64,000 nucleotides of DNA from Truepera sp. (lineage in GTDB: Bacteria; Deinococcota; Deinococci; Deinococcales; Trueperaceae), in NCBI GenBank assembly GCA_032027045.1, contig JAVSMU010000001.1:1872039-1936038 (forward strand), given 5' to 3'. The notes beneath the pieces were generated by a model. The model was not told where the DNA came from and ran no database searches. It saw nothing but the letters and a program-made list of their open reading frames with translations. The position numbers and the translations under genes are program-made. Positions within the stretch are counted from its first letter, which is position 1, and every line of letters starts with the position of its first letter. This document shows, in pieces, positions 5,158 through 42,907 of this stretch.

Positions 5158-8100
5158 TCAATCATCTTCTTGCAAGGAGAATACGCTCATCGAAATTCTC
5201 TTCCCATCAAGTTCCCGTACAGTACGAGTTGTGAAAGAGTCGAACTCCCTAGTCAACTCAGCCACTCGCTCCTCATCAATACTAGAAATCTCCGATACAG
5301 CTACATTCCCCATCGAATGAATTGAAGTTCCGAAGCGGAGTCCTGCATCTTCGCTAAGAAGCCAGCGGTCATGAATTGGGGACTTTCCTTGCGGTCCATA
5401 CCCTGCCACACAGATGTCTATGTCAGGAATGGCCCCACCTGCCACATTGTTTCTCCAGTACGAACGATAGTAGCTCGCAATGTCACCAGAAACGCCCTTT
5501 TCCTTTTGATGGTACGCACTCGTAAGAACCTGAATATAGCAATCTGGGCGCTCTTCCAAGATGACGCTCAGCATGAAGAGCTCGTCGGGGCCAAAGTAGG
5601 GATCGGCAACTTTTAGGTAGGATCCGACCTTACTCCGGGCAAACTCGCGAACCTTTTCAATAACCTTTTCTCTCGAGCCAGGACCAGCAATCAATCCACC
5701 GCTCTTACCGATGACTCTCTTTGCCGCTTCTCTTGACCGTTCGCCACTTGCAATAGATACCCGGGCCACGCCTTGCACTAGGGTAGCTGCTACCTCGCAG
5801 CTACTAAGTGCACTTCTAAGTGGCTCGACCTTGCCAGATGGGCTCAGACTTTCATTCTGCACCGCCCACGCATAGACGCTTGCTACTCTATTCAATGCAG
5901 CCGAACCTGCCCTGCTTACATAAGGACTCGCCCTGTCAGAAGCGATTGGCCTCAGGATTCTCCCGTTGAGGTCAGCTAAGTGGCTATTAGCGATCTTCAC
6001 TACCTTCTTGATGGGTAGGTGGCCTGGATCAGCAGTCCTCCTCGAGTCGCTAAGATCATCCCGCGCCTTAGAAACTGCAATGTGCTCACCAAAACTGAAC
6101 GCTGTGCTTCTATTCCGTGCAGGGTCCCCATCCAATTGGGCCGCAAGGCGCTCAGCAAGACGTGGGCTAATCACGTGAGCTAAGTCAAGTATTGATCTTA
6201 GATGTGCGTCGACAGGTCCCGACACCCCGCGCTCAACCATTTCAATTGCGCTGGTTATGCAGGCCTGACTGATTTCAGAATCGGTTCGACGCGCCGCCTG
6301 TCCAACCGATTCGTAGCGGTCAAGCGCGTCCAAAACGCTACCAATTCTCGATGTCTCATCTCTGGCCTCTTTAAGTAACTCCTTCCGCAGCGCGGAGAGG
6401 CGATTGGGCATTACCTCTGCGAGCGAAGCCAGGACATAGGCACGGTCAGAGACGTTCGGAATGCTACGAGCACGGCTCGCGAGACTATCCCAGACGTGGC
6501 CTCCCGCCACCCTAAGGCCCGCTGCCATTCCGGCGATGAACACCGAGTAGCCCTCATGTTGGATTCCACCAGGGCTAGGAACCTTTTGCTCGGCAAGTAC
6601 TTCTATGCGTTCCGCCAGAGTGTGCCTCTGCTCTGCAGTAATAATCGGACCACCACGCAATTTCGTGGCAGACAGGCAGATTAGTCTTGCGTATCGCGCC
6701 ATTTGTTCGTCAGACGTGCTGTGTGAAAGCACAGACACAATCTGTAATGCGGTTGAGTAATCCAGGCGTATGAACTCTGGCGATCGCCAGGAAATTGGCT
6801 CACCTGGAGAAACTCGGTAGAAAAGGAATGAAGAGATGTCTTCAACGGCTTGGCCCCGTGCAAGCAGAGGCAATGACTCAAGTAGGTCAGTTGCTACTGC
6901 GTTGTGCGTAACGTAAAGAGCAGGGAGTATCGTGATAGTGCTAGCCACGTTCGCATATGGATCGTCACTCGGAAGCTTATGAAGATGGGGAATAATGTGC
7001 TCTTCGGCAATTGCGGATGCGAGGCCTTGGTCGTCTGCGCGGTAACAAGTAGTTACAAGCCTTGCCATAAGAGACAGTTTGTCCACCTGCGCAGAAACCA
7101 GTGAGACTAGTCCAATCACTTGCTCAAGGGCCTCTGCCGGGATTGCCTTTCTAGTTAAGAGCCCCTCGAAGGCACGGATGCTAATAGCGGCAAGCGTAAT
7201 AAGCGAGAACTGCGGAGCGGCCGCCGCCGTAGGATCCTCTCGCTGGAGTTCGTCAGACCCATCAAGAACCGCACGAGCGACATCTGGCGCGCACTTTGCT
7301 AAGGCTTTAGCTACAATGTAGCCAACTGCAATTCGTTCCGACGGAATAGCGATACTAGAAACTTTATCCGCAGCCCAATTCGCTACCTTTTGACTCGCGC
7401 CACTTCCGATTCTATGTAGTAACTGCGACGAGGCGGCTAGAGCTCTAGCGGCGAACCCCGGACGCTCCCAGCCCCGCATATCCTGAAATCGTCGAGGGAG
7501 TGCCAAATCAACGTCGCTAGGAAGTGGTCCGGGCCTGTCTGCCAGCTCTTCGAGTATGAGCATCGTTTCCCGTTGCCGCAATATGGCACTTGAAACTCGG
7601 TCCAAGACTCCCAGAATTTCTTCCAGGCTCAATCCCTTGTTGCTTCCCTCGAGAATCTGAGTTCCAATCTCCACAAAGCCAAGGTTGCGCCTATACTCAG
7701 TGTTGATTCTCTCAACGATTCCCACCGCCTTGGCAGAGTCGGCCCGAGCGAGGGCTTGCAGTGTGTTCCGCAGCAAATCAAAGTGATTCGCAGTTGAGTT
7801 GACGACTTCATCTACCGCCATCTCGAGGCGATGGGAGACCTCTCTTACGACAACCTGCAAGGGAATAGCCTCAAGGCGTCTACTCTCGAGCTGATCTAGG
7901 AGTGCTGCCAGAGTTAGGGCCAGACAGTGTGAGCGCGTCGGTACGTCATGCATACCGACTATGTCCCTCACTACCCTGCCAAGGCGGTCTACCGCATCGC
8001 GCGATAGGCCTGAGCCAGTCGGCACTTGATTCATTTCGACCTTGAATAGTGAAAGCTCTAGGCGCACTACGTCGGCAGTCTTGCTACGTTCCCTAGCGAT

Positions 8101-10122
8101 AGTACTGAGGCCAGCTATCCGTTTCAGGAGCGTTGAGACGCGCGCGCTTTGGGAAGACGCCTGCTCCGCTAGGGCCGCAGCCATCAAGTCGAAGTCCCTT
8201 AAGGTTGAAACGTAGTCGCTTGTCGAAGCTATCAACTCTAGAGCTTTCTCAACAACGTCTAGTGCATCCTCACGATCACTAGACCCTTCAAGCCAACGCA
8301 AAAGGAAAAACAGTTGCCTATCCGGCGCCAGGTCAGCTACAAGGTGGAAGACACCTTTGGCATCTCTACCGCTTGAGAATTGTGTAACCGTTCGAAGAAT
8401 TGCGCGAGTCGTCTCCTGACTGTCTGACGGTGTCAACCCGTCTTCTCCGGCTTCTGGGACAGTCTCACCCTCTAGTCTGCTTCCATCTTGCGAACCCTCC
8501 ATCGCTTGGGCCCGTGCCTCACCTACCTCTTGTCGCTCAACAAATCGGTAAGCATACTCAGGTGATACGTCAAGACTGCTAGCTACCAAATCGATAAGGC
8601 GCTGTCTGGATATCTCGGCGTCACTCTGAAGGAGCCGCTCAAACTGAGACTCCAGGTCAACTCGAAGTTCTTCGAATCTTGAGGGGTCCCGCTTCTTTAG
8701 TAGTGAGCATACGGCCGCAAGAGATGCCGCGCGGTCCTCGAGGATGGGCGCGCTTTGCGCCAACGCTATGGCTTCATCGATCTCGCCGAGGACTGCAAGG
8801 GCGTCTACGTGAGCCTTCAAACCTGCACTCGAATCAAGTCCTAGAAGCGTCGAGCACAACAGGGATAAGCGAAAGATGTCTGTGTAATCACCAATATGCA
8901 ATGCTGAGTCAAGTCCGTCTCGAGCATGTCGCAAGACTGGTAAGAATGACTCTGCTGCCTCAAGTCGATCCACCAAGAAATCACCAGAGGTAGCCGCAAC
9001 CACGTCTTCATTTCGGCCTTCTACGCGATAATAAGCAACAAGTTGCTCACGTCTCTTTGGGTCTGACGATTCCTGCAAATCCCCGATAATTAGGCCAAGT
9101 ATGTCGCTTCGCCGAGTGGACAGCAACTGCCTCGCGTGCTTGCGATGCTCTTCTGTGACATACTCCAGCGTTCCGGTGATCGGAGAAACTCTCAGTGTGG
9201 GGATTCTTTCGAGGAGAGAGTTGACACCCTCCACTTGCTCGCCCAATACGCGCGCTGCATCCGCAATTGTGTAGGGCCAAAGGGCGAAAGCTACCAGCCC
9301 CGCCAAAGCACCTAACTGCCCGTCAAGGTCTATGCTGGCCCATTCACGAGCTACGTATCCCTTAAGGTCTTTTGGGGCGTCCTTGAGTAGTTCCTCCGCC
9401 TTACGGCCGCTCCTGATCTCACGAACAAAACTCGCCATGAGGCCGGGCATTTGGCGCGACTCCCGATATATTGCTTCGATAACTGAACTTTCTAGATCTA
9501 AGTCCTCGAATAGTTCTCTTGCTTCTGGTAACGAAAACAACTGCACAGGGCAGTGTCGCACCTCTAGCTTACTGAGTAATTCATCCGGCAGAACGGATGC
9601 ATCGCCACTTACAACGAACTTGAACCCTTGCCTGCCGAAAGGCAACACTTTCCAAACGATGTCATCTCGAAGTGCGCTTTGGGCCTCGCTAAACTCCTCA
9701 AGCCCATCAACAACAATTACTATTCTTCCCCCGGGTCCCTGACGCCGGGCTTTCGTTTGGAGGGAACTGATTAGTGTTCGGAACTCCGCCTCGGGCACCT
9801 GAACTTCATGCCGCATTTCTCCGAAGAGTATGTAGCGGGCTTGATTCGCCAGGTCGGCCATTAGGTAGTGGGGATCTGTTGCTAGCGAGGAAAGTGGACG
9901 AATGAAGAGACTTAGACCGGCCTCAGCGGTTCGCATCGCAACCTGAGCAAGCAAGGTCGTCTTGCCTGAGCCATCGGCACCTTCGACAAGAACTACGTCT
10001 GCGCCTTGGTCATCAATGAGGTGCAACACGGTGTCGACGACGCTCTCCCGTCGCACACTTTCAGTTGCATCTTGCGGAAAGGTTAGAGAGATCTGGGTAC
10101 TGTCTACTAGAATTGCGTCCAC
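5158..10122 (-). CDS. Giant STAND-like P-loop NTPase with C-terminal PLD-like domain (candidate defence protein)
   Basis: A 1654-residue protein. The N-terminal NTPase has Walker A GADGSGKTT (residues 48-56) and Walker B IVIVVDG (134-140). A winged-helix-like stretch follows, then more than 1000 residues of helical repeats resembling TPR/SNaCT-type sensors. The C-terminus carries a phospholipase-D-like segment: VADPYFGPDEL, a strand IQVLTS, then HDRWLL at about 1584 and FGTSIHSMG. This is the architecture of STAND immune proteins, in which a repeat domain senses a trigger, the NTPase oligomerises and an effector acts. Here the effector would be a PLD-fold nuclease or lipase at the C-terminus. 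It starts at GTG after GGGGG. Its base composition is lower in GC than that of the transposon genes to the right. The defence role is inferred. Confidence 0.6.
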   Translation of the reverse strand: MDAILVDSTQISLTFPQDATESVRRESVVDTVLHLIDDQGADVVLVEGADGSGKTTLLAQVAMRTAEAGLSLFIRPLSSLATDPHYLMADLANQARYILFGEMRHEVQVPEAEFRTLISSLQTKARRQGPGGRIVIVVDGLEEFSEAQSALRDDIVWKVLPFGRQGFKFVVSGDASVLPDELLSKLEVRHCPVQLFSLPEARELFEDLDLESSVIEAIYRESRQMPGLMASFVREIRSGRKAEELLKDAPKDLKGYVAREWASIDLDGQLGALAGLVAFALWPYTIADAARVLGEQVEGVNSLLERIPTLRVSPITGTLEYVTEEHRKHARQLLSTRRSDILGLIIGDLQESSDPKRREQLVAYYRVEGRNEDVVAATSGDFLVDRLEAAESFLPVLRHARDGLDSALHIGDYTDIFRLSLLCSTLLGLDSSAGLKAHVDALAVLGEIDEAIALAQSAPILEDRAASLAAVCSLLKKRDPSRFEELRVDLESQFERLLQSDAEISRQRLIDLVASSLDVSPEYAYRFVERQEVGEARAQAMEGSQDGSRLEGETVPEAGEDGLTPSDSQETTRAILRTVTQFSSGRDAKGVFHLVADLAPDRQLFFLLRWLEGSSDREDALDVVEKALELIASTSDYVSTLRDFDLMAAALAEQASSQSARVSTLLKRIAGLSTIARERSKTADVVRLELSLFKVEMNQVPTGSGLSRDAVDRLGRVVRDIVGMHDVPTRSHCLALTLAALLDQLESRRLEAIPLQVVVREVSHRLEMAVDEVVNSTANHFDLLRNTLQALARADSAKAVGIVERINTEYRRNLGFVEIGTQILEGSNKGLSLEEILGVLDRVSSAILRQRETMLILEELADRPGPLPSDVDLALPRRFQDMRGWERPGFAARALAASSQLLHRIGSGASQKVANWAADKVSSIAIPSERIAVGYIVAKALAKCAPDVARAVLDGSDELQREDPTAAAAPQFSLITLAAISIRAFEGLLTRKAIPAEALEQVIGLVSLVSAQVDKLSLMARLVTTCYRADDQGLASAIAEEHIIPHLHKLPSDDPYANVASTITILPALYVTHNAVATDLLESLPLLARGQAVEDISSFLFYRVSPGEPISWRSPEFIRLDYSTALQIVSVLSHSTSDEQMARYARLICLSATKLRGGPIITAEQRHTLAERIEVLAEQKVPSPGGIQHEGYSVFIAGMAAGLRVAGGHVWDSLASRARSIPNVSDRAYVLASLAEVMPNRLSALRKELLKEARDETSRIGSVLDALDRYESVGQAARRTDSEISQACITSAIEMVERGVSGPVDAHLRSILDLAHVISPRLAERLAAQLDGDPARNRSTAFSFGEHIAVSKARDDLSDSRRTADPGHLPIKKVVKIANSHLADLNGRILRPIASDRASPYVSRAGSAALNRVASVYAWAVQNESLSPSGKVEPLRSALSSCEVAATLVQGVARVSIASGERSREAAKRVIGKSGGLIAGPGSREKVIEKVREFARSKVGSYLKVADPYFGPDELFMLSVILEERPDCYIQVLTSAYHQKEKGVSGDIASYYRSYWRNNVAGGAIPDIDICVAGYGPQGKSPIHDRWLLSEDAGLRFGTSIHSMGNVAVSEISSIDEERVAELTREFDSFTTRTVRELDGKRISMSVFSLQEDD

Positions 10123-12291: not shown

Positions 12292-13941
12292 TCAGATGCG
12301 TGATAACTGGCTCACTCGATGCTTTTCCTCCGCGTTCGCCTTCTTATGCCTGGGCCATCGGCCCGGACGATTGGCTGCCTCACGATACTTGCGTTCATCG
12401 TAGCGAGCTTCGGACTCCTGCCAACGGATGATGCTCCCCGCAACTTGCCCAGCCGCTGAGTAGGTAATGACGGGGTATTCGGGAGCCGAACAAGCGACCT
12501 CTACGACCAAACGCGCCAGCTTGCGCGAGATGCTAGCTTCTCCCGCCACGTTGATAAGGCGCAGGAGCCTTGAAGACGACGCCTCCGGATCATCCCTCCT
12601 GATCACGTCCGACCACACCGAAGCCGACTTGCTGCAGAAGAACCGCAGCATGATGAGTAACGGCTCCACGAGGTGGACGGGGTGGACGAGCCCGCATACC
12701 TCCGGGAGCCTCTCACGGATGAACCCAGGGGTGATGTGACCCTCGAAGTGACGGAAGTCGAGCCTCCGCCCCCTAGCCGGATGGTTCCGCAGGTACGCGA
12801 GCACCTGACCCTCTTCGACTGTCGATTCGACTAAGCCGAGCCTCAGGACGGGTGAAATACGGTTGTCTTGCCGAGCACGGATTGCGGCCTTCGGTTCTCT
12901 CCCCACCACATGCACTATTAGTGCTGCCAGCCGTTGGTTGAAATGCTCCTCGGTCTTGGCGGTGAGTATTGAGATACCGTGCGTGACCGCGACCGCGAGC
13001 AATGCCGGTGAGGGAACGCCGACCATGGCGTGGTCGTTCGACCCCTTCTCGCCGCGGCGCCCAGCCAAGTCGCTGTCTCGACCTTCACAGTACTTGCGCC
13101 AAACAGTTGCCAGTGGGTCGCAAAGGCCGTCCGCTAGGCCTGCTGGCGAAGCGAAGAACACCAACCGGCACAAAGCGCGCAGGTCATCGAAGAATTCTAG
13201 CGGCGACATGATGACTCCGGGCCGGAGCTCGAACGCGCCTCGACTACGCAGCAAGTCCAGCACATACTGCTGTGCGTTCACTACCTCAGGGTCAGTTATG
13301 GCCGGCATAGGAATCAATCGCAGGTCATGTCCACACGGGAGCCCCGAGCGGGCACGTTCACTTCCCACCTCAGCCGGATTCATGCAGGCCCGGACCGAAC
13401 CAACACGGCTCGATTGGATTGGTTTCACGCCACCATCGCGGCGCGGTAACCCATGTGGCAGATTGCAACCGGAACACACTTCGGAAAGCAGCCTTCCGTG
13501 CCTCAAGCACATGAACACGGAGCCCACTTTCCATTCCAGCCGGAAGTAGGCTGGATCTTCACTTAAGCAGTCAGGGCAAATGAGGGTACTACTCACTCGC
13601 ACCTGCTCCCGCAATCCGAGCTTTCGCGGTTCTTCCGAGCGAAGAAGTCGGAAGCTGTGCATGGCGAGACTACTCAAGAACGATGCGCCAATGGCGGCCT
13701 TTTGATTAGGGCAGTGGTTCTCCGTCGGCCTCAACATGTAGGTCCTCCGGACATCAACTGCTTGCGGGTTCTCAGAGACCTCCGCCAGCGCCAAGGTCTT
13801 TATCGCCATGCTTTGTCCAATGCTATTCGCGGCGGAAGCTCGCCAGGCAAGTGACTGGAACGCTTCCCCCTCCTCCAGGAGGGGGAAGCCCGGCAACTCG
13901 AACAGCCTGTCGCCGATGAAGTGCTCCGGTGAGCCGCCCAT
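12292..13941 (-). CDS. tniQ: TniQ-family target-selection protein (module 1)
   Basis: A 549-residue TniQ protein. The N-terminal domain carries the family's opening (LPGFPLLEEGEAFQSLAWRAS) and a zinc-finger set: CPDC near residue 121, then FMCLRHGRLLSEVCSGC, with a further Cys/His pair (LPCGHDLR). The C-terminal half is helical and probably binds DNA. In Tn7-type systems TniQ/TnsD proteins mark the target and recruit TnsC. It is the last gene of the operon: its ATG overlaps the tnsC stop as TGATG. At 549 residues it is longer than the small TniQ of Cas-linked elements and closer to TnsD-type targeters. The target site is unknown. Confidence 0.85.
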   Translation of the reverse strand: MGGSPEHFIGDRLFELPGFPLLEEGEAFQSLAWRASAANSIGQSMAIKTLALAEVSENPQAVDVRRTYMLRPTENHCPNQKAAIGASFLSSLAMHSFRLLRSEEPRKLGLREQVRVSSTLICPDCLSEDPAYFRLEWKVGSVFMCLRHGRLLSEVCSGCNLPHGLPRRDGGVKPIQSSRVGSVRACMNPAEVGSERARSGLPCGHDLRLIPMPAITDPEVVNAQQYVLDLLRSRGAFELRPGVIMSPLEFFDDLRALCRLVFFASPAGLADGLCDPLATVWRKYCEGRDSDLAGRRGEKGSNDHAMVGVPSPALLAVAVTHGISILTAKTEEHFNQRLAALIVHVVGREPKAAIRARQDNRISPVLRLGLVESTVEEGQVLAYLRNHPARGRRLDFRHFEGHITPGFIRERLPEVCGLVHPVHLVEPLLIMLRFFCSKSASVWSDVIRRDDPEASSSRLLRLINVAGEASISRKLARLVVEVACSAPEYPVITYSAAGQVAGSIIRWQESEARYDERKYREAANRPGRWPRHKKANAEEKHRVSQLSRI

Positions 13942-15158
13942 CAGCGCACATCTCCAGCGCTTCTTCCACCGCGCCCTGGCTTCTTACGCGGAGTCTTGCC
14001 TGTCCTGCTGGGCTTGTACTTCTGCTCAGCGGCGTAGCTGATCTGCACCTCTTCGAACACTCCCATGCTCAGGCGCTCGCCTCTGCCGATGGCGAGTAGC
14101 GCGGCGCCATGCATGAGGGCGACGACGTGTTGCAGTACGCCTCCGGTACGTCTGAAAACGTACTCCACCATTTGTGGCGTCAGCCACTCGGCCTTGGGGT
14201 CGTCCAGCAATACCGTCTTCCAGGCCATCAGTTGGAGCACCCGGCGCAAATCGTCACTCTTAACAGGGTCCGGCAGCTTACCGATTTCCTGCCGGGTGAA
14301 GCGCCGTGAGAGCTGTTCCTGGGCGCCGACCTTACGACCGTCCAAGAACTGCAGCGTCCTATCCTGCCTAACGCCTGCCATCAGGAACACCGCATTGGTG
14401 CGGTTGATCAGGTCCTTGAGGTAGTTGATGGTCTCGGTCCCGTTCCCGGTGTCGCGGATGAAGTGCACCTCGTCGATCACCACCAGGACGGTCCCGCAAT
14501 TGGCCATCAAGTTGGAGAGTTTGTCAGCGAGGTCGGCGCCGCGCACCGTCCCCATCAGCGGCTCCACCGGCACGCCTATGGAGTCGTAAGCCTTCAGCGC
14601 CAGCTCTAGGAAGATCTTGGGGCCGACACTGCCGTGCAGCGACACGACCAGGACCGGGACGAACTGCCCTTCGATAGTCTGCCCGTCGACGGTGCGGCGC
14701 CGCAAGCGCAGTCGAACTGGGGGCTCGCCGCGCCACGCGTCGCCATACGCCTCACCGAGCTCCTTCAGCAGCACCCGGTTGGCGATCTCGGTGATGGTGG
14801 TCGACTTACCGACCCCCGCCTCGCCCTCGACCATCACACCACCCTGCGTGGTGGTTCCTGAGAACCGTGCGCGGTCCAGGGCCGTGGCTACCAGACCGTT
14901 GACCGCTTCCAGGTGGGGTACGCCGGCCACCGCGGGCGCCAAGGCGAGACGGTGACGGCGCGCGTCGAACTCAGCGCGCTTCGTGGGCGTGAGCTTGTCG
15001 TAATCGCGGCGCGTCACGGCACGCGCCTCCTCGACATCGGCCTTGAGGGCGCGAATCGCCTCCTCACGCTGCAGCGCGTAGTCCCACAGGGCACGAACGC
15101 TCGACAGCGGATTCTGCGGCACATCCACCTCGTGCATCAGCGGCTTGTTCTTCGCCAT
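13941..15158 (-). CDS. tnsC: TnsC/TniB-like AAA+ ATPase (module 1)
   Basis: A 405-residue AAA+ regulator of transposition. Walker A is VEGEAGVGKST and Walker B is VLVVIDEVHF, followed by an Arg-rich sensor region (EQLSRRFTRQEIGKLPD). The C-terminal tail is strongly basic (SRTGKTPRKKPGRGGR), suited to contacting DNA or TnsB. TnsC-type ATPases form filaments on target DNA and pass the signal from TniQ to the transposase. The gene has its own Shine-Dalgarno (GGAGGTGAAGC before ATG) because a 47-bp gap with a hairpin separates it from the upstream transposase fragment. Confidence 0.88.
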   Translation of the reverse strand: MAKNKPLMHEVDVPQNPLSSVRALWDYALQREEAIRALKADVEEARAVTRRDYDKLTPTKRAEFDARRHRLALAPAVAGVPHLEAVNGLVATALDRARFSGTTTQGGVMVEGEAGVGKSTTITEIANRVLLKELGEAYGDAWRGEPPVRLRLRRRTVDGQTIEGQFVPVLVVSLHGSVGPKIFLELALKAYDSIGVPVEPLMGTVRGADLADKLSNLMANCGTVLVVIDEVHFIRDTGNGTETINYLKDLINRTNAVFLMAGVRQDRTLQFLDGRKVGAQEQLSRRFTRQEIGKLPDPVKSDDLRRVLQLMAWKTVLLDDPKAEWLTPQMVEYVFRRTGGVLQHVVALMHGAALLAIGRGERLSMGVFEEVQISYAAEQKYKPSRTGKTPRKKPGRGGRSAGDVR

Positions 15159-15176
15159 GCTTCACCTCCAAAAGGG

Positions 15177-15200
15177 AGAGCGCCGGGGGGCCGGCGCTCT
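15177..15200 (-). other. Intra-operon hairpin before tnsC
   Basis: A perfect 10-bp stem, AGAGCGCCGG with CCGGCGCTCT, closes a GGGG (plus strand) tetraloop between the transposase C-terminal gene and tnsC. It has no T-tract, so it is more likely a processing or stability element, or a partial attenuator, than a full terminator. Confidence 0.6.
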
Positions 15201-15205
15201 GAGAG

Positions 15206-15997
15206 TCAGTGGAACTGGGGGACGTCCTCCGGACCCCAGAGGGAATCCTCAGAGCCCTGAGGCACGGAGTCCTCGTCCTCAAAGTCGTCGAGGTAGTCGT
15301 AGTCGAAGTCGTCGGCGTCGTGGCGCGACTCCTCGAGGCTGGCGAGCGCGCGTGCGGTGGCAGCCCGTGCCTTCCTCTCGTGCCAGCGGACGGAACGGCG
15401 GGCCGAATCGATGATCAATGCCAGCATCTCGGCAGCGGGAGCGCCCCCTGGCGTAGCGCCCCTGTGCTCGAGGTAGCCACTGAGCCACTCAAGGTAGCGC
15501 GCCATGTTCTCACCGATGAGCTTAGAGACCTGATGCGGAGGGTCCCCACCATCGGCGACGTCGTCGCACTCGCTCCACTCGATATCGCCACCGGCGTCCT
15601 TGTTGCTGCCTTTGTGGGTGCGAAGGAAGGTGCGCATGCGCTCCGGCAGCGGGAAGGCCGTCTTGGGCGGCAGGTCCACCCACGGCACCGTCACCCACTC
15701 GGCGGGCTCGTTGGTGCCGGCCTTGACGTTCACGTAGATGAAGCGAACGTCGTTCCGGTCGATGCGGACCGGCCACTTGCGGGTGCCGGTAGCTGGGCAG
15801 ATGCGGTTCCGGATCACGTCGACCTGCGGAGCGTCGTAGCGCATGTTGAACAGGAAGAAGCCGGCGTTGGTGGCGGTGCGCTGCTCGGCGTCCATGAACA
15901 GGAACCGAACGTCGGAGTCGACCGGGATGATGCGCAGCCCGTGCTGTTGGATGCTCGCGTGATAACACTCGTAGGGCGTCAGGTTGATTACGCTCAC
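15206..15997 (-). CDS. Mu-C-type C-terminal part of split TnsB transposase
   Basis: A 263-residue protein that begins exactly where the Mu-type beta-barrel domain should begin. LTPYECYHASIQQHG is the usual linker to the barrel, followed by RTATNAGFFLFNMRY and the VRIDRNDVRFIYVN strand pair typical of the Mu-C domain. The C-terminus is a long acidic tail (DDFDYDYLDDFEDED), where TnsB/MuA proteins carry the contact for their ATPase. It starts at GTG overlapping the upstream stop as GTGA, with a strong GGAGGTGA in place, so separate translation is credible. The reading frame differs from that of the catalytic part, so an old frameshift is the alternative. Confidence 0.8.
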   Translation of the reverse strand: MSVINLTPYECYHASIQQHGLRIIPVDSDVRFLFMDAEQRTATNAGFFLFNMRYDAPQVDVIRNRICPATGTRKWPVRIDRNDVRFIYVNVKAGTNEPAEWVTVPWVDLPPKTAFPLPERMRTFLRTHKGSNKDAGGDIEWSECDDVADGGDPPHQVSKLIGENMARYLEWLSGYLEHRGATPGGAPAAEMLALIIDSARRSVRWHERKARAATARALASLEESRHDADDFDYDYLDDFEDEDSVPQGSEDSLWGPEDVPQFH

Positions 15998-17442
15998 GCC
16001 TTCACCTCCGATACGACCAGGCCCGAGTGCGGCGTGTGGTGGTACACGCGCGTCACCCAGGCCTTCAGGACCGTCTCCAGTTCGGCCAGTGTCAAGAGCT
16101 CATGGGGTTCGAACTGTAGGCCGCTGCCGCGGTCACGCACGTCGATGCCCGTGTAGCCCGGGAGCGTCTGTAGGACGCTCTCGAGGGTCCGGAAGAAGCG
16201 CTCGACGTGCGGCTTGTCCGTCGGGGTGTAGGGGCGCGCGAACTCGATGCCGAACCCCAAGTTGGCCGCCAGGCCCACCAGCCAGCGGTTGTCGAACTCC
16301 CGGCCGCGGTCGATGCAGATCACCCGCGGCACTATCATCAGGCCAGCCTCGCTGGCCCCCTCTGGCGCCTCGGGCACGAACTTCGCCAGGTGACTGGCGT
16401 CCACTCCGAGCTGGTTGTAGGCAGCGTCGGCCGAGAACGGCCGCGCGCTCGGCTTCGGGGTGAACATCTCCAGCAGCAACGAAGCCACCTCCGGCTGACC
16501 GATGCTCGGAGCCACCACAGGTCCAAAGGCAGCCCGTGTGACGCCGTCCAGGCCCCAGACGCTGTGGGCTCGGAACATCCGGGTGCCGTCGGTGACCATC
16601 ACGTTCAGGACCGTGGCGTCGATCTCCACACGCTCGCCGGGCATGGTGGCGTGCGCCTTGCGGAAGGTGCCCGCCGGACGGTTCGCCCGCGACTGCTGGT
16701 ACTTGCGGTGCGTGTTGTCAGCCCCCATCCACTTCAGGGTCCGCTTGACCACCTCGAAGCTGACGCTCTTAGACGGGATCCTGGTGCCCTTGAAGCGTTC
16801 GTTCGTCGCGATCAGCTCCGCGACTTTTGCGAGGATCATCGTCGCCTGGATGCGCGGGCCCGGTTTCGACAACTGACGGGCCAGGACGACCTCGACCGCC
16901 TCGTCGAACCTCGGATCCCGCTCCACCGGGCGCCCACCCGAACCTTTGCGGACCAGCCCTGCTACACCCCGCTCCCGGTAAGCGCGGATGAGCTTCTCCA
17001 GCGTTTCGCGCTTGTAGGAGAACTCGCTGTTCGCGAGCTCTTCGACCTTGGCGTCAAGACGCTCGTTGAAACCCTCGGACGGTTCCGGCGCAAGGTTGCT
17101 GCCTGGCGCCGTCGGTGACTCCCCCGGTAGCTCAGGAGTACCGAAGATCACCTGCCGGATGTGGGGCTCGAGGCGGAGCGCGCGATCCTGCTCCGCCCGG
17201 GGTGCGTCCTTGTACACCATGACCGCCGCCTCGTGCGTCAGCTCGTCGTAACCCTTGCCATCGGGCGTCAGGAAGCGGGGGCGGCGAGCCATGAAGGCGT
17301 TGAGCTCAACGGACTCCTCCAATCCCAAGCCGTCGCGCTCGTAATGCAACTCGCCGCCCTTAATGCCGGTGACCTTGCACACGACACCGTCGATCTCGAA
17401 GAGCTGCCCCTGGTTTAGGGTCGGTGAGAGGTTGTCTTTCAT
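15994..17442 (-). CDS. Catalytic part of split TnsB/TniA-like DDE transposase (module 1)
   Basis: A 482-residue protein. The order is an SH3-like N-terminal strand set (LFEIDGVVCKVTGI), helix-turn-helix segments (ETLEKLIRAYRERGVAGL), then an RNase-H-type core. The catalytic residues are Asp near 274 (VEIDATVLNV), Asp near 377 (CIDRGREFDN) and Glu near 413 (KPHVERFFRTLE), a DD-35-E layout. It makes the 3' cuts and strand transfer in Tn7-like elements. The frame ends right after HHTPHSGL, before the Mu-C domain, which is encoded by the next gene. I chose the ATG at 17440-17442 because it overlaps the tnsA stop as ATGA; an upstream start is possible. Confidence 0.85.
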   Translation of the reverse strand: MKDNLSPTLNQGQLFEIDGVVCKVTGIKGGELHYERDGLGLEESVELNAFMARRPRFLTPDGKGYDELTHEAAVMVYKDAPRAEQDRALRLEPHIRQVIFGTPELPGESPTAPGSNLAPEPSEGFNERLDAKVEELANSEFSYKRETLEKLIRAYRERGVAGLVRKGSGGRPVERDPRFDEAVEVVLARQLSKPGPRIQATMILAKVAELIATNERFKGTRIPSKSVSFEVVKRTLKWMGADNTHRKYQQSRANRPAGTFRKAHATMPGERVEIDATVLNVMVTDGTRMFRAHSVWGLDGVTRAAFGPVVAPSIGQPEVASLLLEMFTPKPSARPFSADAAYNQLGVDASHLAKFVPEAPEGASEAGLMIVPRVICIDRGREFDNRWLVGLAANLGFGIEFARPYTPTDKPHVERFFRTLESVLQTLPGYTGIDVRDRGSGLQFEPHELLTLAELETVLKAWVTRVYHHTPHSGLVVSEVKA

Positions 17443-18260
17443 GCGCTCACCGTCCGCAACGTGAGGAGGGCGCCAGGGTGGATCCCGTCCCGCAACGAGA
17501 AGGTCAGCTCCCGCCGCCACATCATCGCCATCAGCGAGGCATGCGCCACGGGATCGTCCTCAGCGCACGCCTCCAGGAGTTCAGCAAAGGGCCACACCCG
17601 CCTCTCGCGGAACGCCCGCTGCACCCGTTGACGCAGGTCACGTTGGACCGGGACCCGGGCGTAGCAGCTCAGGTACTCGATGGTCTCCCCGAACTCCTCC
17701 ACGCTCTCGCCCGACACAACGAACGTCCAGCCCACCTCCTTCGCGAACCGGCTCAGCCGCTCGCAGGAGCGCATGAAAGCCTCATCACGCTTCTCCACCG
17801 GCCGGACGTTCTCCAGCACCAGCTCGCCATCCACCGTCTCGTACAGCAGATCGGGCACCTCACCCGAACCGCTATCACCCAGGCGGTGGACGCGCATCGG
17901 CTGGGTGGCGATGTCCGTGACCTCCTGGCGGAACACCAGCTCCAGGATCCGCACGGCCTCGAAACGGCTCTCGCAGACGCGCGCCTCACCCGGCAGGTGA
18001 TGCAGCGGCATCAACGTCACCCGCCCGCGCTGGTGCGCCCACCCCCGATGCACGTTCCGCACAGGGAGCAACGACGAGACATCCACCCCCTGCGACAGCT
18101 CCGACGGCGTTAGCCGCACAAGCTCATCTTCGTCAGCCCGCTCTCTCGGCCGCACGAAGATCTCGAACTCCTCCTCGAATGGGGGCAAGCCGACCCCGGC
18201 GAAGGGGCGCCCGCCTCCTCCCCACAGCGAGGACGGCTCACGACAGACAACTTCAGCCAC
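17439..18260 (-). CDS. tnsA: TnsA-like endonuclease with altered active site (module 1)
   Basis: A 273-residue protein with a central TnsA nuclease fold. It shows Glu97 in CESRFEAVRI, Asp137 in EVPDLLY, and the strand ELVLENVRPVEKR where active TnsA proteins have V-D-V-K. Here the last two key positions read Asn151 and Arg153, so 5'-strand cleavage may be weak or lost. The C-terminal helical domain (CYARVPVQRDLRQRVQRAF) would contact TnsC. It starts at GTG (18258-18260) with GGAGGG six bases before. It is the first gene of the operon and overlaps the transposase gene. Confidence 0.75.
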   Translation of the reverse strand: MAEVVCREPSSLWGGGGRPFAGVGLPPFEEEFEIFVRPRERADEDELVRLTPSELSQGVDVSSLLPVRNVHRGWAHQRGRVTLMPLHHLPGEARVCESRFEAVRILELVFRQEVTDIATQPMRVHRLGDSGSGEVPDLLYETVDGELVLENVRPVEKRDEAFMRSCERLSRFAKEVGWTFVVSGESVEEFGETIEYLSCYARVPVQRDLRQRVQRAFRERRVWPFAELLEACAEDDPVAHASLMAMMWRRELTFSLRDGIHPGALLTLRTVSA

Positions 18261-18789: not shown

Positions 18790-21700
18790 ATGCTGAAGCC
18801 AACTACTGACATCGGGGGGCAACACGTGCTTTCTGCTAATACCTCACCAACACATGCCGACCAGACACCGAGCGGCGGCATCCACGGCCTGCTAAACCAA
18901 CTCGCGGGAGCCGCCCTGGATGGCCGCGACAAAGGCGACAAACTCGAGCGCCTAATGAAGTCCTACCTCCAGACGGACCCCATGTACGCCGCCAAATACA
19001 GCAACGTGTGGCTCTGGAAGGACTGGCCCGGCCGCGGTAACCAACCCGACACCGGCATCGACCTAGTGGCCGAAGAGCGCGACACCGGCGACCTAGTGGC
19101 CATCCAATGCAAGTTCTACCAGCCCGGTCATTACCTGATGAAGAGCGACATCGACTCGTTCTTCACGGCCAGCGGCAAGCATCCGTTCAAGAGCCGCATC
19201 ATCATCAGCACCACCGACAAGTGGAGCAAGCACGCCGAGCAAGCCCTCGACGAGCAGCAGATCCCCGTCACGCGCCTGCGCGTCCAGGATCTAGCCAACA
19301 GCCCTGTCGACTGGAGCCAGTTCACCCTCGAGAAACCTGAAGACATCAACCTCAAGGCCAAGAAGAGCCTGCGCCCCCACCAGGTAATCGCTCACGAGAA
19401 GGTGACCACTGGCCTGGCTGAGGCCGAGCGCGGCAAGCTCATCATGGCTTGCGGCACCGGCAAGACCTTCACCAGCCTCAAGATCGCCGAGAGCATGGCC
19501 GGCGCCGGCAAGCGCGTGCTGTTCCTAGTGCCTTCCTTGTCGCTCCTCTCGCAGACGCTGCGCGAGTGGACGGGCGACGCCGAAGTGCCGCTCAGGTGCT
19601 TCGCCGTGTGCAGCGACAGCAAGATCGGCCGCGGTCGCGAGGACGAGGACCTGCGCGTGCATGACCTCGCCTTCCCCAGCACCACCGACCCCCAGAAGCT
19701 CCACGAGCAGGCCAGCACGCTCGCGCCCGAACGCATGACGGTGGTGTTCAGCACCTACCAGAGCATCCAGGTGGTTAGTGACGCGCAGGCGCTCGGCATG
19801 CCCGAGTTCGACCTGATCATCAGCGACGAAGCGCACCGCACCACCGGCGCCACCCTGCAAGGCGAGGAACGCTCCCACTTCACCAAGGTGCACGACAACG
19901 ACATCGTGCGCGGCAGGAAGCGCCTCTACATGACCGCCACCCCCCGCCTCTATAGCGACGATCAGGTGACCAGGGCCGCCGAGAAGGAGGCGCTGCTGTG
20001 GAGCATGGACGACCCCGAGCACTACGGCGAGGAGCTGCACCGCCTCAACTTCGGGGAGGCCGTCGCTCAGGGGCTCCTGAGCGACTACAAGGTCATGATC
20101 CTGGCAGTCGACGAGAAGCACGTCACCAAGACCTTCCAGGCTCAGCTGGCGGACGCCAACAACGAACTCAGCCTCGACGACGCCGTCAAGATCGTGGGCT
20201 GCTGGAACGGCCTCGCCAAGCGCACCCCCGACAGCGTGGAGGACGACGGCCTCGCCGGCGACACCGCCGCCATGAAGCGCGCCGTGGCTTTCGCCGGCAA
20301 CATCAAGACCTCCAAGCGCATCGCCGGCATGTTCACCGACATCGTTGAGGAGTACCTCGAGCACGCCGGCGACGACGACGACCTGCTCTACTGCGAGGCG
20401 GCGCACGTCGACGGCACCTTCAACGTGCTCGAGCGCAACAACCGCCTCGACTGGCTCAAGGCACCCACGCCCGACAACACCTGCCGCATCCTCACCAACG
20501 CCCGCTGCCTCAGCGAGGGCGTCGACGTCCCCAGCCTGGACGCGGTGATGTTCCTGCAGCCGCGCGACAGCGAGATCGACATCGTGCAGGCCGTGGGCCG
20601 CGTCATGCGCAAGGCGCCCGGCAAGAAGTACGGCTACGTCATCCTGCCCATCGGCATCCCCGCCGGCATGAGCGCTAGTGAGGCGCTGGCCGACAACCAG
20701 AAGTACAAGGTCGTGTGGCAGGTGCTCCAGGCGCTGCGCGCGCACGACGAGCGCTTCGACAGCACCGTCAACAAGATCGAGCTCAACAAGAAGAAGCCCA
20801 AGCAGATCGATGTCATCGGCGTCGGTGGCGGCAGCGAGGAACGTGAGGGCGACACCTCCGTGCAGGACGGCTTCGCCTTCGAGCTCGACAACATCGGCGA
20901 GTGGCGCGACGCCATCTACGCCAAGATCGTCGAGAAGGTCGGGAACCGCCGCTACTGGGAGAGCTGGGCCAAGGACGTTGCGCAGATAGCCCAGCGCCAC
21001 ATCGACCGCATCCAGACCCTGCTCGAGCACGAGGAGTCGGAGCACGCTAAGGCGTTCGAGGACTTCCTGGCCGGCCTGCGCCGCAACCTCAACCCCGCCG
21101 TCAGCCGCGACGAGGCCGTCGAGATGCTCTCGCAGCACCTCATCACTAGACCCGTGTTCGAGGCGTTGTTCGAGGACTACAGCTTCTCGCAGCACAACCC
21201 CGTCAGCGCCGCCATGCAGAGAATGGTCGACCTGTTGGAAGAACAGGCACTGGAGAAGGAGACCGAGTCCCTCGAGGGCTTCTACGAGAGCGTGCGCGAG
21301 AACGCCAAGGGCATAGACAACGCCGAAGGCAAGCAGCGCATCATCGTCGAGCTCTACGACAAGTTCTTCCGTACCGCTTTCCCCCGCATGGCCGACCGCC
21401 TCGGTATCGTCTACACCCCCATCGAGGTCGTCGACTTCATCATCCACAGCGCCGAGCACGCGCTCCGCGAGGAGTTCGGCGCCAGCATCAGCGACGAAGG
21501 CGTACACGTCCTCGACCCCTTCACCGGCACCGGCACCTTCATGGTCAGGCTCCTCCAGAGTGGCCTCATCAAGCCCGAGGACCTCGCCCACAAGTACCGC
21601 CACGAGTTGCACGCCAACGAGATCGTGCTGCTCGCCTACTACATCGCTGCCATCAACATCGAGGAGACCTACCACAGCCTAGCTGGCGGCGAGTACCAGC

Positions 21701-22035
21701 CCTTCGAGGGCATCGTCCTGACCGACACTTTCCAGATGACGGAAGACCCAGCCAACGGCCAGGCGGGCGCGATCTTCCCGGTTCTGCCCGAGAATAGTGA
21801 GCGCGCTGAGAAACAGAAGGCACACGACATTCGGGTGGTCATCGCCAACCCTCCCTACAGCGCCGGTCAAGACAGCGCTAACGATGACAACCAGAACCTG
21901 AAGTACCCGAGGCTCGACGAAGCCATCGCCAACACGTACGCGGCCCACTCCACCGCCGGCTACAAGAACAGCCTTTACGACTCGACATCCGCGCCTTCCG
22001 CTGGGCTAGCGACCGGATCAAGGACAAAGGCGTGA
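18790..22035 (+). CDS. Type ISP restriction-modification enzyme, N-terminal part (frameshifted)
   Basis: This frame encodes nuclease, helicase and the start of the methyltransferase of a LlaGI/LlaBIII-like single-chain enzyme. Mrr-like nuclease residues are Asp91 (GIDLVAEE) and Q106-x-K108 (AIQCKFY). SF2 helicase motifs include GTGKT near 221 and DEAH near 346, with VQAVGRVMRKAPGK as motif VI. The adenine methyltransferase has DPFTGTGTF near 909 and NPPY near 1020. After NSLYDS the frame goes wrong and stops at 22035. Inserting one T between 21984 and 21985 restores NSLYDSYIRAFRWAS and joins the next frame. GGAG seven bases before the ATG supports the start. Confidence 0.85.
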   Translation: MLKPTTDIGGQHVLSANTSPTHADQTPSGGIHGLLNQLAGAALDGRDKGDKLERLMKSYLQTDPMYAAKYSNVWLWKDWPGRGNQPDTGIDLVAEERDTGDLVAIQCKFYQPGHYLMKSDIDSFFTASGKHPFKSRIIISTTDKWSKHAEQALDEQQIPVTRLRVQDLANSPVDWSQFTLEKPEDINLKAKKSLRPHQVIAHEKVTTGLAEAERGKLIMACGTGKTFTSLKIAESMAGAGKRVLFLVPSLSLLSQTLREWTGDAEVPLRCFAVCSDSKIGRGREDEDLRVHDLAFPSTTDPQKLHEQASTLAPERMTVVFSTYQSIQVVSDAQALGMPEFDLIISDEAHRTTGATLQGEERSHFTKVHDNDIVRGRKRLYMTATPRLYSDDQVTRAAEKEALLWSMDDPEHYGEELHRLNFGEAVAQGLLSDYKVMILAVDEKHVTKTFQAQLADANNELSLDDAVKIVGCWNGLAKRTPDSVEDDGLAGDTAAMKRAVAFAGNIKTSKRIAGMFTDIVEEYLEHAGDDDDLLYCEAAHVDGTFNVLERNNRLDWLKAPTPDNTCRILTNARCLSEGVDVPSLDAVMFLQPRDSEIDIVQAVGRVMRKAPGKKYGYVILPIGIPAGMSASEALADNQKYKVVWQVLQALRAHDERFDSTVNKIELNKKKPKQIDVIGVGGGSEEREGDTSVQDGFAFELDNIGEWRDAIYAKIVEKVGNRRYWESWAKDVAQIAQRHIDRIQTLLEHEESEHAKAFEDFLAGLRRNLNPAVSRDEAVEMLSQHLITRPVFEALFEDYSFSQHNPVSAAMQRMVDLLEEQALEKETESLEGFYESVRENAKGIDNAEGKQRIIVELYDKFFRTAFPRMADRLGIVYTPIEVVDFIIHSAEHALREEFGASISDEGVHVLDPFTGTGTFMVRLLQSGLIKPEDLAHKYRHELHANEIVLLAYYIAAINIEETYHSLAGGEYQPFEGIVLTDTFQMTEDPANGQAGAIFPVLPENSERAEKQKAHDIRVVIANPPYSAGQDSANDDNQNLKYPRLDEAIANTYAAHSTAGYKNSLYDSTSAPSAGLATGSRTKA

Positions 22036-23681
22036 TCTGCTTCGTCACCAACGGCTCCTTCATCGACGGCAACGCTGCCGACGGAATGCGTAAGACGTTA
22101 GTAGACGAGTTCAGCAGCATCTATGTGTTCAACCTGCGTGGCAATCAGCGGACATCCGGTGAAACGTCACGTCGCGAAGGCGGCAAAATCTTCGACTCGG
22201 GAAGCCGAGCAACCATCGCCATTACCCTCCTCGTGAAGAACCCTGCGAAGCAAACGCCGGGGAACCTTCACTACTACGACATCGGGGATTACCTGAGCCG
22301 TGACCAGAAGCTCGCCGCCATCGAGGAGTTCGGAAGCGTGGCTGGTATCCCCTGGCGCCAGGTGACGCCCAACGCTAGGCACGACTGGATCAACCAGCGG
22401 GGCGAGGACTTCCAGGCCTTCCAGGTGCTCGGCGACAAGAGAGGGAAGGATGAGAGCCCGATCTTCGCTACCTACTCCCTAGGCTTGTCAACGAATCGGG
22501 ACGCCTGGGTCTACAACTTCTCTCAAGACGAGCTCGCACGCAACGTGGACCGGATGATCGACTTCTACAACACGCAGGTGGACCTCTACGAAGACGCCAT
22601 CCACGCAGGCGCTGAGCCATCAGAGGCGCTCGAGGTCGTCAGCAACGACGCTGCAAGAATCAGTTGGTCCGTGAATCTCAAGAAGGATCTCATGGCGGGC
22701 AGAAGGCTCTCGTTCAAGAGGTCCCGGGTATTCCGAGGCTCTTACAGGCCATTCACGAAGCAGCATGTCTACTTCGATAAGGACTTGAACGAGCGTCCCG
22801 GGCTGACACCTCGGCTGTTCCCGACACCTGATGCCGAGAACCGCCTAATCAGCGTCACGGGAGTGAGCGCCAGCAAGCCGTTCTCAGCCTTGATGACGGA
22901 CTCCCTACCAAACCTTGATCGCCTAGAGAAAGGTCAGAACTTCCCGCTCTACTACTACGATGAGGCAGACGGCGATCAATCAGGCCTCTTCTCTGAAAAG
23001 CCAGGGGTTGCTGGTCGCTACGTCCGGCGCAGCGCGATCACGGACGACACACTGGTGTCCTACCGCGATAGATACGGCGACTCGAGCATCACGAAGGAAG
23101 ACATCTTCTATTACGTGTATGGAGTTCTCCATAGCCCTGAGTACCGTGAGCGTTTCGATGCGGAACTTAGAAAGGAACTCCCGCGCATCCCGTTCACAGA
23201 GGACTTCTGGGCTTTCTCGCGCGCGGGCCGCGAGCTCGGTGAGATCCACGTCAACTACGAGAGCCAGACAAAGCACCCCGTAACAGTTACGAACACGCAC
23301 TCCTCACCGGACAGCGCTGAAGCCCTGCGGGTCGATAAGATGCGCTTCCCACGCAAGGACAAGCAGCCGGACAAGAGCGCGATCATCTACAACAAGCACG
23401 TCACCATCAGCGACATCCCGCTCGAGGCGTACGAGTACGAGGTGAACGGCAAGAGCGCCGTCGAGTGGATCATGGACCGCTACCAGGTCAAGGTCGACAA
23501 GAAGAGCGGCATTAAGAACGACCCGAACGAGTGGAGCGATAATCCCAGCTACATCTTGGACCTGCTCCAGCGCATCATCCACGTGAGCCTGGAGACGGTA
23601 CGGATTGTCAACGCGCTTCCGCCGCTAGACGAAAAGAACCTGGATTATGACAGTGACCCAGCATCCGCGATCGAGGCCTAG
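22032..23681 (+). CDS. Type ISP restriction-modification enzyme, C-terminal part (frameshifted)
   Basis: Continuation of the broken gene in another frame. The homologous frame is open from about 21985 (IRAFRWASDRIKDKGVICFV), so the first ATG here is internal and not a natural start. The first ~100 residues finish the methyltransferase (FVTNGSFIDGNAADG, FNLRGNQRT). The rest should be the target-recognition domain (YRPFTKQHVYFDKDLNERP). Together the parts give about 1630 residues, close to the 1570-1580 of known Type ISP enzymes. Unless the deletion is a sequencing error or a phase-variable state, the enzyme is inactive for modification and target recognition. Confidence 0.85.
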   Translation: MICFVTNGSFIDGNAADGMRKTLVDEFSSIYVFNLRGNQRTSGETSRREGGKIFDSGSRATIAITLLVKNPAKQTPGNLHYYDIGDYLSRDQKLAAIEEFGSVAGIPWRQVTPNARHDWINQRGEDFQAFQVLGDKRGKDESPIFATYSLGLSTNRDAWVYNFSQDELARNVDRMIDFYNTQVDLYEDAIHAGAEPSEALEVVSNDAARISWSVNLKKDLMAGRRLSFKRSRVFRGSYRPFTKQHVYFDKDLNERPGLTPRLFPTPDAENRLISVTGVSASKPFSALMTDSLPNLDRLEKGQNFPLYYYDEADGDQSGLFSEKPGVAGRYVRRSAITDDTLVSYRDRYGDSSITKEDIFYYVYGVLHSPEYRERFDAELRKELPRIPFTEDFWAFSRAGRELGEIHVNYESQTKHPVTVTNTHSSPDSAEALRVDKMRFPRKDKQPDKSAIIYNKHVTISDIPLEAYEYEVNGKSAVEWIMDRYQVKVDKKSGIKNDPNEWSDNPSYILDLLQRIIHVSLETVRIVNALPPLDEKNLDYDSDPASAIEA

Positions 23682-38749: not shown

Positions 38750-39915
38750 GAGGAATTGAGGAGGCGCGCGACCGCTTCCGGGGAGTCCTTGATGGCCGCG
38801 AGGGCCGCCTTCTTCTCGGCGTAGTAGCGTTCGGCGCCCTCCGCGAGCCGGATGTTTTCAAGGCCAGCCCGGGACAGGGTCTCACTGCCGTCCCGGATCG
38901 CCGCGTTGGCGGCGGCGCGCACCAGCCGGATCAGGCTGCCGATGCCGCCTTCGGTACGGAGGTAGAGGTAGCGCTCCTGCTGCACCAGCCAGCCGGGCCT
39001 GTACTCGATCAGGCACAGGTGCTCTTCGACGCTCGCGAGGAACTCCAGCCACGCCGACTTGCCCGCCAGATGGACGTCGTACGGGAACGGGTCGACCTTG
39101 TGCAGAGCGAAGCGGTACTGGGTCTGGGTGAAGCGGCCCTTCCCCCCGGTGCGGCTGTCCATCAGCAGCACCGAGTCCTCGCAGTTGATGCCGGCGTAAA
39201 CGAACGTCGCGGGGATCAGGTTCGCGAGTTCCTTGATGAGGTCGTTGACGCTGTCGGCGCTCTTGTTGCCGCGGTGCAGGTTGTGGATGTCATCGAGGAT
39301 GAACAGGCTGGTGCCGCACTGCACGGCGATGTCGTGTAGCCGGCTCTTCAGCTTCGCTTCGGAGTCGCGCTCCGCGAAGGGATTGCCGTAGAACTTGTTC
39401 AATGCCTGCAGCAGCTTCTTGGGCGTGGTGCTCGAGGGAACGCTGCTGTAGACCACCGGGATGAACTCGACGTGGGTTCCGTGCAGGCCCTTGCCCTCGT
39501 AGGCGCGCTGCGCCAGCCCCTCGTAGATGCGGCCCATGTGCAGCACGATGGTGGTCTTGCCGAGCGTGGCTTGCCCGTCCACGATCGCGCCCTGACGGGC
39601 CCCGGGAGCGGTGCGGAGGTTGTCCCACGCGAGGCGGATCACCTGGTCGTGAACCTTCTTCATGGTGCGGGAGGTGAGCGGCCCGAAGGTGTTGTGGTAC
39701 ATCTTCCGCGCCAGGTCGAACGAGGCCTTCTCCGCGTCGCTCATCGCCTGGTACTGCGCCATGGAAGGCAAGAGCGGCTTCTTCGGATCGGGCCTGGCAA
39801 CGAACTCGCGCCACGCCACGTAGTTCTCGGGGTTCTCCCGCGCGAACGGAACGTCCTCGGCCAACAGGTCGGAGAAGTTGGCAAGCATGTTGTCCACCAC
39901 GTCGGCTATGGTCAT
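38746..39915 (-). CDS. tnsC: TnsC-like AAA+ ATPase (module 2)
   Basis: A 389-residue ATPase. Walker A is VDGQATLGKTT and Walker B is LFILDDIHNL, followed by a sensor segment (ATFVYAGINCEDSVLL) and an Arg-rich stretch before the lid (TQTQYRFALHKVDPFPYD). The N-terminal ~85 residues (LPSMAQYQAMSDAEKASFD) are helical and likely contact TniQ or DNA. It shows little likeness to the module 1 ATPase outside the motifs. The ATG at 39913-39915 follows GGGAGG closely; a TTG one codon earlier is possible. Confidence 0.87.
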   Translation of the reverse strand: MTIADVVDNMLANFSDLLAEDVPFARENPENYVAWREFVARPDPKKPLLPSMAQYQAMSDAEKASFDLARKMYHNTFGPLTSRTMKKVHDQVIRLAWDNLRTAPGARQGAIVDGQATLGKTTIVLHMGRIYEGLAQRAYEGKGLHGTHVEFIPVVYSSVPSSTTPKKLLQALNKFYGNPFAERDSEAKLKSRLHDIAVQCGTSLFILDDIHNLHRGNKSADSVNDLIKELANLIPATFVYAGINCEDSVLLMDSRTGGKGRFTQTQYRFALHKVDPFPYDVHLAGKSAWLEFLASVEEHLCLIEYRPGWLVQQERYLYLRTEGGIGSLIRLVRAAANAAIRDGSETLSRAGLENIRLAEGAERYYAEKKAALAAIKDSPEAVARLLNSS

Positions 39916-39951
39916 CAACCTCCCAGTGCCGCTCTCAGGCGGCGCCCCCCG

Positions 39952-42162: not shown

Positions 42163-42884
42163 GCCATCAACTCGCTCGTAGACAGGTAGACCAGCGAACC
42201 TTCTTCAAGGATCGCCGTCATGTCGAACTTCAGGACCCGTTTCCAAAGGAGGTGGAATAACGCTGGGCGCGCCAGGAGCGGTTGCTCCATCTGGGCGAGC
42301 AGTTGGCGTACGGACACCGCTCCATCGGCACAGCCGCCGACCAACTCTCTCGCCGTCGCCTCGAACCGCGGTGGGCGGCGCCGGTACCCGGCCAGCCACT
42401 TCACGTTGGCGAGGTAAGTGTCATCGGGTTCGGTGCGCACCTCGAAACCCCACCCCAGGTGCTGGCACGCGACTTCCGTGCTCTCGAAAGCTCGCCGGTT
42501 CCGGCTCGCGCCTGCCTGCTCTGACCGCTTCACGTCCACCACCGTGACACCACCACCCTCTCGCCAAACCAGGAAGTCGGGCACGTGCCTAAACGTCTCC
42601 CCACTTCGCTCGAAATGAAGCATGAGAGGTTGGGCGAGTACGCCGATCACTTCGCCATCGAAATCGAAACCCATCAGGGTGAACATCTCGAGACGACTTT
42701 CGTAGGGCACGAGCTGGTTGAGGCCACTGAACCAGTAAAAGCCGGGAAGGTGGCCCTGCCCCTTGTAGGCGGGAATCTTGCGAATGGAGTGATACCCGAT
42801 AAAGTCGCGGCCAGCAGCGTCGTTTATAGGGACCGTTTCGTGAAGCACGAGTCGGTTGTCAAGGAACGAAACTGAGATCTTCAT
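42159..42884 (-). CDS. tnsA: TnsA-like endonuclease (module 2)
   Basis: A 241-residue protein from the ATG at 42882-42884, with GGGGG upstream. The restriction-enzyme-like fold is clear: Glu62 in PYESRLEMFTL, Asp103 in HVPDFLVWRE, and VVDVKRSEQ with Lys119. Unlike the module 1 protein, all catalytic positions are present. The C-terminal part (VRQLLAQMEQPLLARPALFH) is helical and should bind TnsC. In Tn7 TnsA cuts the 5' strands so that the element moves by cut-and-paste. First gene of the operon. Confidence 0.85.
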   Translation of the reverse strand: MKISVSFLDNRLVLHETVPINDAAGRDFIGYHSIRKIPAYKGQGHLPGFYWFSGLNQLVPYESRLEMFTLMGFDFDGEVIGVLAQPLMLHFERSGETFRHVPDFLVWREGGGVTVVDVKRSEQAGASRNRRAFESTEVACQHLGWGFEVRTEPDDTYLANVKWLAGYRRRPPRFEATARELVGGCADGAVSVRQLLAQMEQPLLARPALFHLLWKRVLKFDMTAILEEGSLVYLSTSELMA

Positions 42885-42907
42885 GTGCGCCCCCAAGCCG
42901 CGTAATG

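Follow-up and report, generated by a model that had tools for sequence, protein, structure and literature searches.

A tnsB gene divided at its inter-domain linker in a Tn7-like operon of Truepera sp.: a probable case of gene fission

When the transposase of a Tn7-like operon is encoded in two overlapping reading frames, is the gene simply broken, or has it become a transposase of two subunits? This question is raised by a locus on the chromosome of Truepera sp. (a single contig of 2.92 Mb), within which a stretch of 64,000 nucleotides, hereafter the window, was analysed. The catalytic protein is encoded by tnsB1 (15994–17442, minus strand; 482 aa, ATG start), with a DNA-binding N-terminus, an HTH and an RNase H-fold DDE domain (D275, D378, E414), and the Mu-C protein by tnsB2 (15206–15997, minus strand; 263 aa, GTG start), with a β-barrel (II-beta), helices and an acidic C-terminal tail. 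A single polypeptide, by which the TnsB family is defined, is thus not what this locus encodes, as the catalytic and Mu-C domains lie in two frames. The explanation that we consider probable, judging from the sequence, is a real gene fission, in which two coupled polypeptides would reassemble as one transposase. This reading starts from what is observed, namely two frames, their domain content, the joint, its ribosome site and the single-chain relatives, and extends to the translation of both halves, their assembly and their activity, which we infer.

Both genes belong to an intact operon of five genes on the minus strand, tnsA-tnsB1-tnsB2-tnsC-tniQ, which can be classed as Tn7-like from its predicted products: a DDE transposase of the TnsB/MuA kind, an adjacent TnsC/TniB AAA+ regulator and a TniQ/TnsD selector. 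The tnsA-like gene (17439–18260, minus strand; 273 aa), which overlaps tnsB1 by ATGA, encodes an endonuclease subunit matching NF033179 with an E-value of 4.6e-19, under the curated cut-off. In the alignment this protein retains the ESR-E and PD motifs and has N-x-R at the D-x-K position; a damaged active site was suspected for this reason and then dropped, because the N and R changes each occur singly in relatives. The AAA+ ATPase gene tnsC/tniB (13941–15158, minus strand; 405 aa; PF13401, PF05621) has intact Walker A and B motifs in the alignment, and tniQ (12292–13941, minus strand; 549 aa; PF06527, E 4e-9) encodes the target-selection protein; tnsA, tnsC and tniQ are all full length. A gap of 47 nt (15159–15205) separates tnsB2 from tnsC and holds a 10-bp GC hairpin (15177–15200, minus strand; fold −24.5 kcal/mol, z −3.1), which lies 18 nt ahead of the tnsC start and may tune tnsC expression.

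Other features of the region deserve mention in their own right. Module 2 is a complete second Tn7-like operon (36206–42896, minus strand) with tnsA, tnsB, tnsC and a TniQ that is large (847 aa) and whose C-terminal part appears duplicated by eye; a near-identical module 2 TnsB is present in two same-genus genomes. A protein of 1654 aa (5158–10122, minus strand) with a STAND/NACHT-like NTPase start lies in a low-GC stretch (~53%) and is possible defence cargo. Finally, a TnsA-like gene fragment (IPYESRLEML...; L090:18706-19116) is found ~0.9–1.3 kb left of the window and is likely the remnant of a third Tn7-like element.

Do the two frames together make up a whole TnsB? On the catalytic side, an alignment of eight sequences shows no variation at D275, D378 or E414, the tnsB1 profile matches the solved TnsB of ShCAST (7svw) over residues 67–375 (E 1.3e-36), and a Foldseek search with the tnsB1 model, whose confidence is modest (pLDDT 63), returns TnsB structures as top matches. 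On the Mu-C side, tnsB2 matches PF09299 with an E-value of 0.0019, slightly under the curated cut-off, and a profile built from the Mu-C alignment matches the C-terminal half of Tn6677 TnsB (409–597, E 5.5e-11) as well as 7svw (394–559, E 2.9e-5); the AlphaFold model of tnsB2 was too poor for use (pLDDT 52) and the fold search uninformative. When aligned pairwise with module 2 TnsB, tnsB1 stops at residue 479 and tnsB2 picks up at 482, and on PHROG 310 (phrog_310) the halves meet at profile positions 451 and 455; the cut thus parts the catalytic domain II-alpha from the Mu-C barrel II-beta, and in the tnsB1 model (pLDDT 63) it appears to fall past the last catalytic helix, in a linker that makes up ~1.7% of the chain. 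Both halves are complete and jointly span a single-chain TnsB with nothing missing. The preliminary description had called them otherwise intact, and this is borne out by the invariant catalytic triad and by the Mu-C domain and acidic tail, both of which are kept.

The joint is a 4-nt overlap, GTGA (15994–15997, minus strand), in which the tnsB2 start codon and the tnsB1 stop codon interlock and the frames stand in a −1 relation: tnsB1 ends in HHTPHSGLVVSEVKA followed by the stop, and tnsB2 opens with MSVINLTPYECYH. The two frames, this overlap, the GGAGGTGA ahead of the tnsB2 start codon and the undivided TnsB of module 2 had all been described beforehand and are present in the sequence, and the split does lie at the domain boundary. 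Its exact residues had been misplaced, however, since tnsB1 stops seven codons past HHTPHSGL (VVSEVKA, then TGA) and tnsB2 starts five codons ahead of LTPYECYH (MSVIN), so that the codons for HSGL and TPYECYH are separated by a split inter-domain linker of 38 nt (15980–16017, minus strand). The predicted ribosome-binding site of tnsB2, GGAGGTGA (16002–16009, minus strand), sits inside the last tnsB1 codons, its GGAGG ending 7 nt before the GTG. Its pairing with the anti-Shine–Dalgarno (anti-SD) sequence, at −15.4 kcal/mol, is the strongest among the five operon genes (tnsC, −14.4; the remaining genes, −6.9 to −11.6 kcal/mol) and among 61 gene-pair start codons. The tnsB1–tnsB2 joint is of the same type as that between tnsA and tnsB1, and, judged by codon-position GC, the tnsB1 frame is coding as far as its TGA and that of Mu-C only from the GTG onward.

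The −1 relation, together with a Mu-C frame that stays open for 34 codons upstream of the GTG, could also point to programmed −1 frameshifting, by which a full-length TnsB would be made besides the short catalytic protein; in some known cases an SD sequence can stimulate such shifting. The overlap, however, contains no slippery heptamer, canonical or relaxed, its RNA structure is unremarkable (z −0.27), and codon-position GC gives no sign of coding in the Mu-C frame ahead of the GTG. Programmed frameshifting is therefore very improbable here, and stop-and-restart translation is favoured over it, because neither such a heptamer nor an unusual structure is found in the overlap.

A more serious competitor, although still an unlikely one, is that tnsB was inactivated by a linker indel, that the overlap and the ribosome site are accidental and that the operon is dead or dying. 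The GTGA overlap by itself is weak evidence to the contrary, because 21% of 36,296 one-base frameshifts simulated in long frames of the same genome yield a 4-nt start overlap, and because a frameshifted restriction gene nearby has one too. The overlap combined with a GGAGG at 4–9 nt is another matter: it arose in only 59 of the 36,296 simulated frameshifts (0.16%) and thus exceeds chance. The restriction gene, of the type ISP restriction-modification kind (18790–23681, plus strand), shows that a neighbour has indeed been frameshifted, the break near 21985 splitting it into two frames, with ~16 out-of-frame codons and then a chance GTGA overlap (22032–22035) devoid of a ribosome site; the break is probably a recent lesion. 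The tnsB joint, in contrast, has no out-of-frame stretch, has a strong ribosome site and falls in a linker. Consistent with a dead operon are also the long branch of tnsB1 in a tree where its placement is poor, and the transposon ends: ends with TnsB sites and a 5-bp target duplication would be expected of a Tn7-like element, and no convincing pair of ends, terminal repeats or target duplication was found from the tnsA side to ~72 kb leftward. Yet the remaining genes of the operon are all intact. Part of the ribosome site may nevertheless predate the split: the linker residues P-E-V can be spelled CCGGAGGTG, codons that may by accident have supplied much of the SD sequence, and Streptomyces clavuligerus carries GGAGGT at the equivalent linker place, without a start codon.

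The nearest relatives, single-chain TnsBs of actinobacterial Tn7-like elements with identities of at most ~35%, allow the joint to be compared residue by residue. All 32 aligned relatives cross it in one frame, and in 28 of them, three of which are module 2 or near-identical copies, the linker from H-x-G-L to [ST]P is exactly 10 residues (30 nt) long and usually of the form xxPxxPxxxL. In the present operon VVSEVKA fits the first seven linker positions in frame (compare TVPEVPG in S. clavuligerus) and INL the last three (compare INLSPND in the relative L040), with eight additional nucleotides between the two matches. Both conserved prolines are lost, as they are in a few unsplit relatives, and such a loss is as expected for a free tail. 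Since the joint measures 38 nt against 30 nt, a single-base change in a 10-residue linker is insufficient to produce it, which also argues against an accidental break. Loss of one base from a 13-residue linker could yield 38 nt, and it is on such a linker, in an otherwise ordinary tnsB, that a one-base sequencing or assembly error would depend. Adding one base does open the frame; however, none of the 28 relatives has a linker of 13 residues and no homopolymer of at least four is present at the joint. Moreover, the assembly is not frameshift-prone, because a comparison with a genome of the same genus, covering ~87 orthologous frames and 32.5 thousand residues, revealed no true frameshift, the three flagged cases being antisense or between-gene artefacts. 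An error of this kind is thus scarcely credible.

Does the same split recur in homologous elements, where the preliminary description had proposed to look for it? Each relative found turned out to be single-chain or broken elsewhere. A second linker split was detected in none of 111 Deinococcota, 396 Actinomycetota and 398 Pseudomonadota genomes, nor among 72,556 plasmids, 50,697 phage records and viral contigs, although the Mu-C alignment proved too diverse for scanning viral sequences; the genomes, plasmids and phage records searched held no homologue above ~35% identity, and the literature searched no description of a split TnsB. The fission could be unique to the present strain. Twelve loci with Mu-C matches in short frames proved to be contig edges, remnants or within-domain frameshifts and not linker splits. 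The tnsB of a Rhodococcus sp. PD04 plasmid (L021), annotated as two proteins, has an in-frame stop inside Mu-C (6569–6573); that of L037, which also looked split, has a frameshift inside Mu-C; and those of L092, L093 and L100 are frameshifted within domains. Within the same subfamily, 2 of ~28 tnsB genes carry a break inside Mu-C, and other relatives are frameshifted, which speaks to some extent for decay of the present gene as well, but the relatives' breaks lie within domains, whereas the present one lies in the linker and costs no residue.

In the fission that we favour, the tnsB of a Tn7-like operon would have been split at the II-alpha/II-beta linker. Ribosomes would complete TnsB1 and halt at the TGA, whereupon either they or newly recruited ones would begin TnsB2 at the GTG, aided by the strong ribosome site within the final tnsB1 codons, and coupled amounts of the two polypeptides would result. 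TnsB1 would be in charge of transposon-end binding and DDE chemistry, and TnsB2 would supply the target-DNA-contacting barrel and an acidic tail expected to bind TnsC; the two are expected to rejoin non-covalently, via the II-alpha/II-beta contact and on DNA, as a TnsB tetramer. In ShCAST TnsB, II-beta touches target DNA, and recruitment of TnsC falls to the far C-terminus (PMC9371665). The functional two-subunit transposase proposed earlier is accordingly best supported as far as two cistrons and two subunits are concerned, given a cut in the linker, nothing lost and the strongest ribosome site, while its complex and its function would be expectations drawn from that arrangement.

The C-terminus of the ShCAST transposase contacts TnsC on its own (PMC9371665), and a second complete tns operon lies within the window, so it could also be argued that the halves have separate roles: TnsB2 would be a free TnsC-binding regulator, acting for example in immunity or filament disassembly, and TnsB1 would work with another partner, such as the module 2 machinery. 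An exchange with module 2 is unlikely, however, because its TnsB is only 28% identical to tnsB1 (372 columns). Furthermore, in TnsB and MuA structures the II-beta barrel usually packs close to the catalytic core, and separate roles are altogether very doubtful. Returning to the fission, the idea that the product is an obligate heteromeric, naturally split TnsB, with a catalytic subunit and a TnsC-contacting Mu-C subunit as separate proteins, strikes us as evenly poised between true and false; if true, the proportion of the subunits and their exchange on the TnsC filament could vary in a way that is impossible for a single-chain transposase. Should the halves cooperate, they would provide natural evidence of where a TnsB/MuA-type transposase tolerates cutting and still assembles, test the need for a covalent II-alpha/II-beta linker, separate catalysis from TnsC recruitment and offer a natural template for split transposases in CAST engineering; if the gene is a wreck, the element is an ordinary broken transposon.

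When compared with known systems, the operon stands closest to the actinobacterial Tn7-like elements, represented by those of Rhodococcus jostii RHA1 pRHL3 and of Mycolicibacterium and Streptomyces plasmids, with NF033179-type TnsA neighbours. It shares with them the order tnsA-tnsB-tnsC-tniQ, 4-nt overlaps, the DDE motif, the linker position and the Mu-C domain, at ~30–34% identity. Actinobacterial TnsB, however, is one chain of ~680–720 aa with a 10-residue linker, in contrast to the two chains and 38-nt joint described here, and actinobacterial tnsB and tnsC overlap by 4 nt, where the present operon has the 47-nt gap with its hairpin; translational coupling may have shifted from tnsB–tnsC to tnsB1–tnsB2. 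Module 2 TnsB (39952–42162; 736 aa), in the same window, shares domain order and operon layout but is a single chain, and its identity to tnsB2 is 23%. Two overlapping, −1-related frames encoding a DDE transposase are also typical of IS3-type orfA/orfB, whose transposases arise by −1 frameshifting; here, in contrast, there is no slippery site, tnsB2 comes with a strong ribosome site of its own, and the cut comes after the catalytic domain and not before it. Finally, the TnsA-TnsB fusions of type I-B2, I-D and some I-F3 CASTs (PMC11406308) illustrate that Tn7-like transposase subunits can be joined or separated, although in those fusions two proteins have become one, whereas here one has become two, with the cut within TnsB itself.
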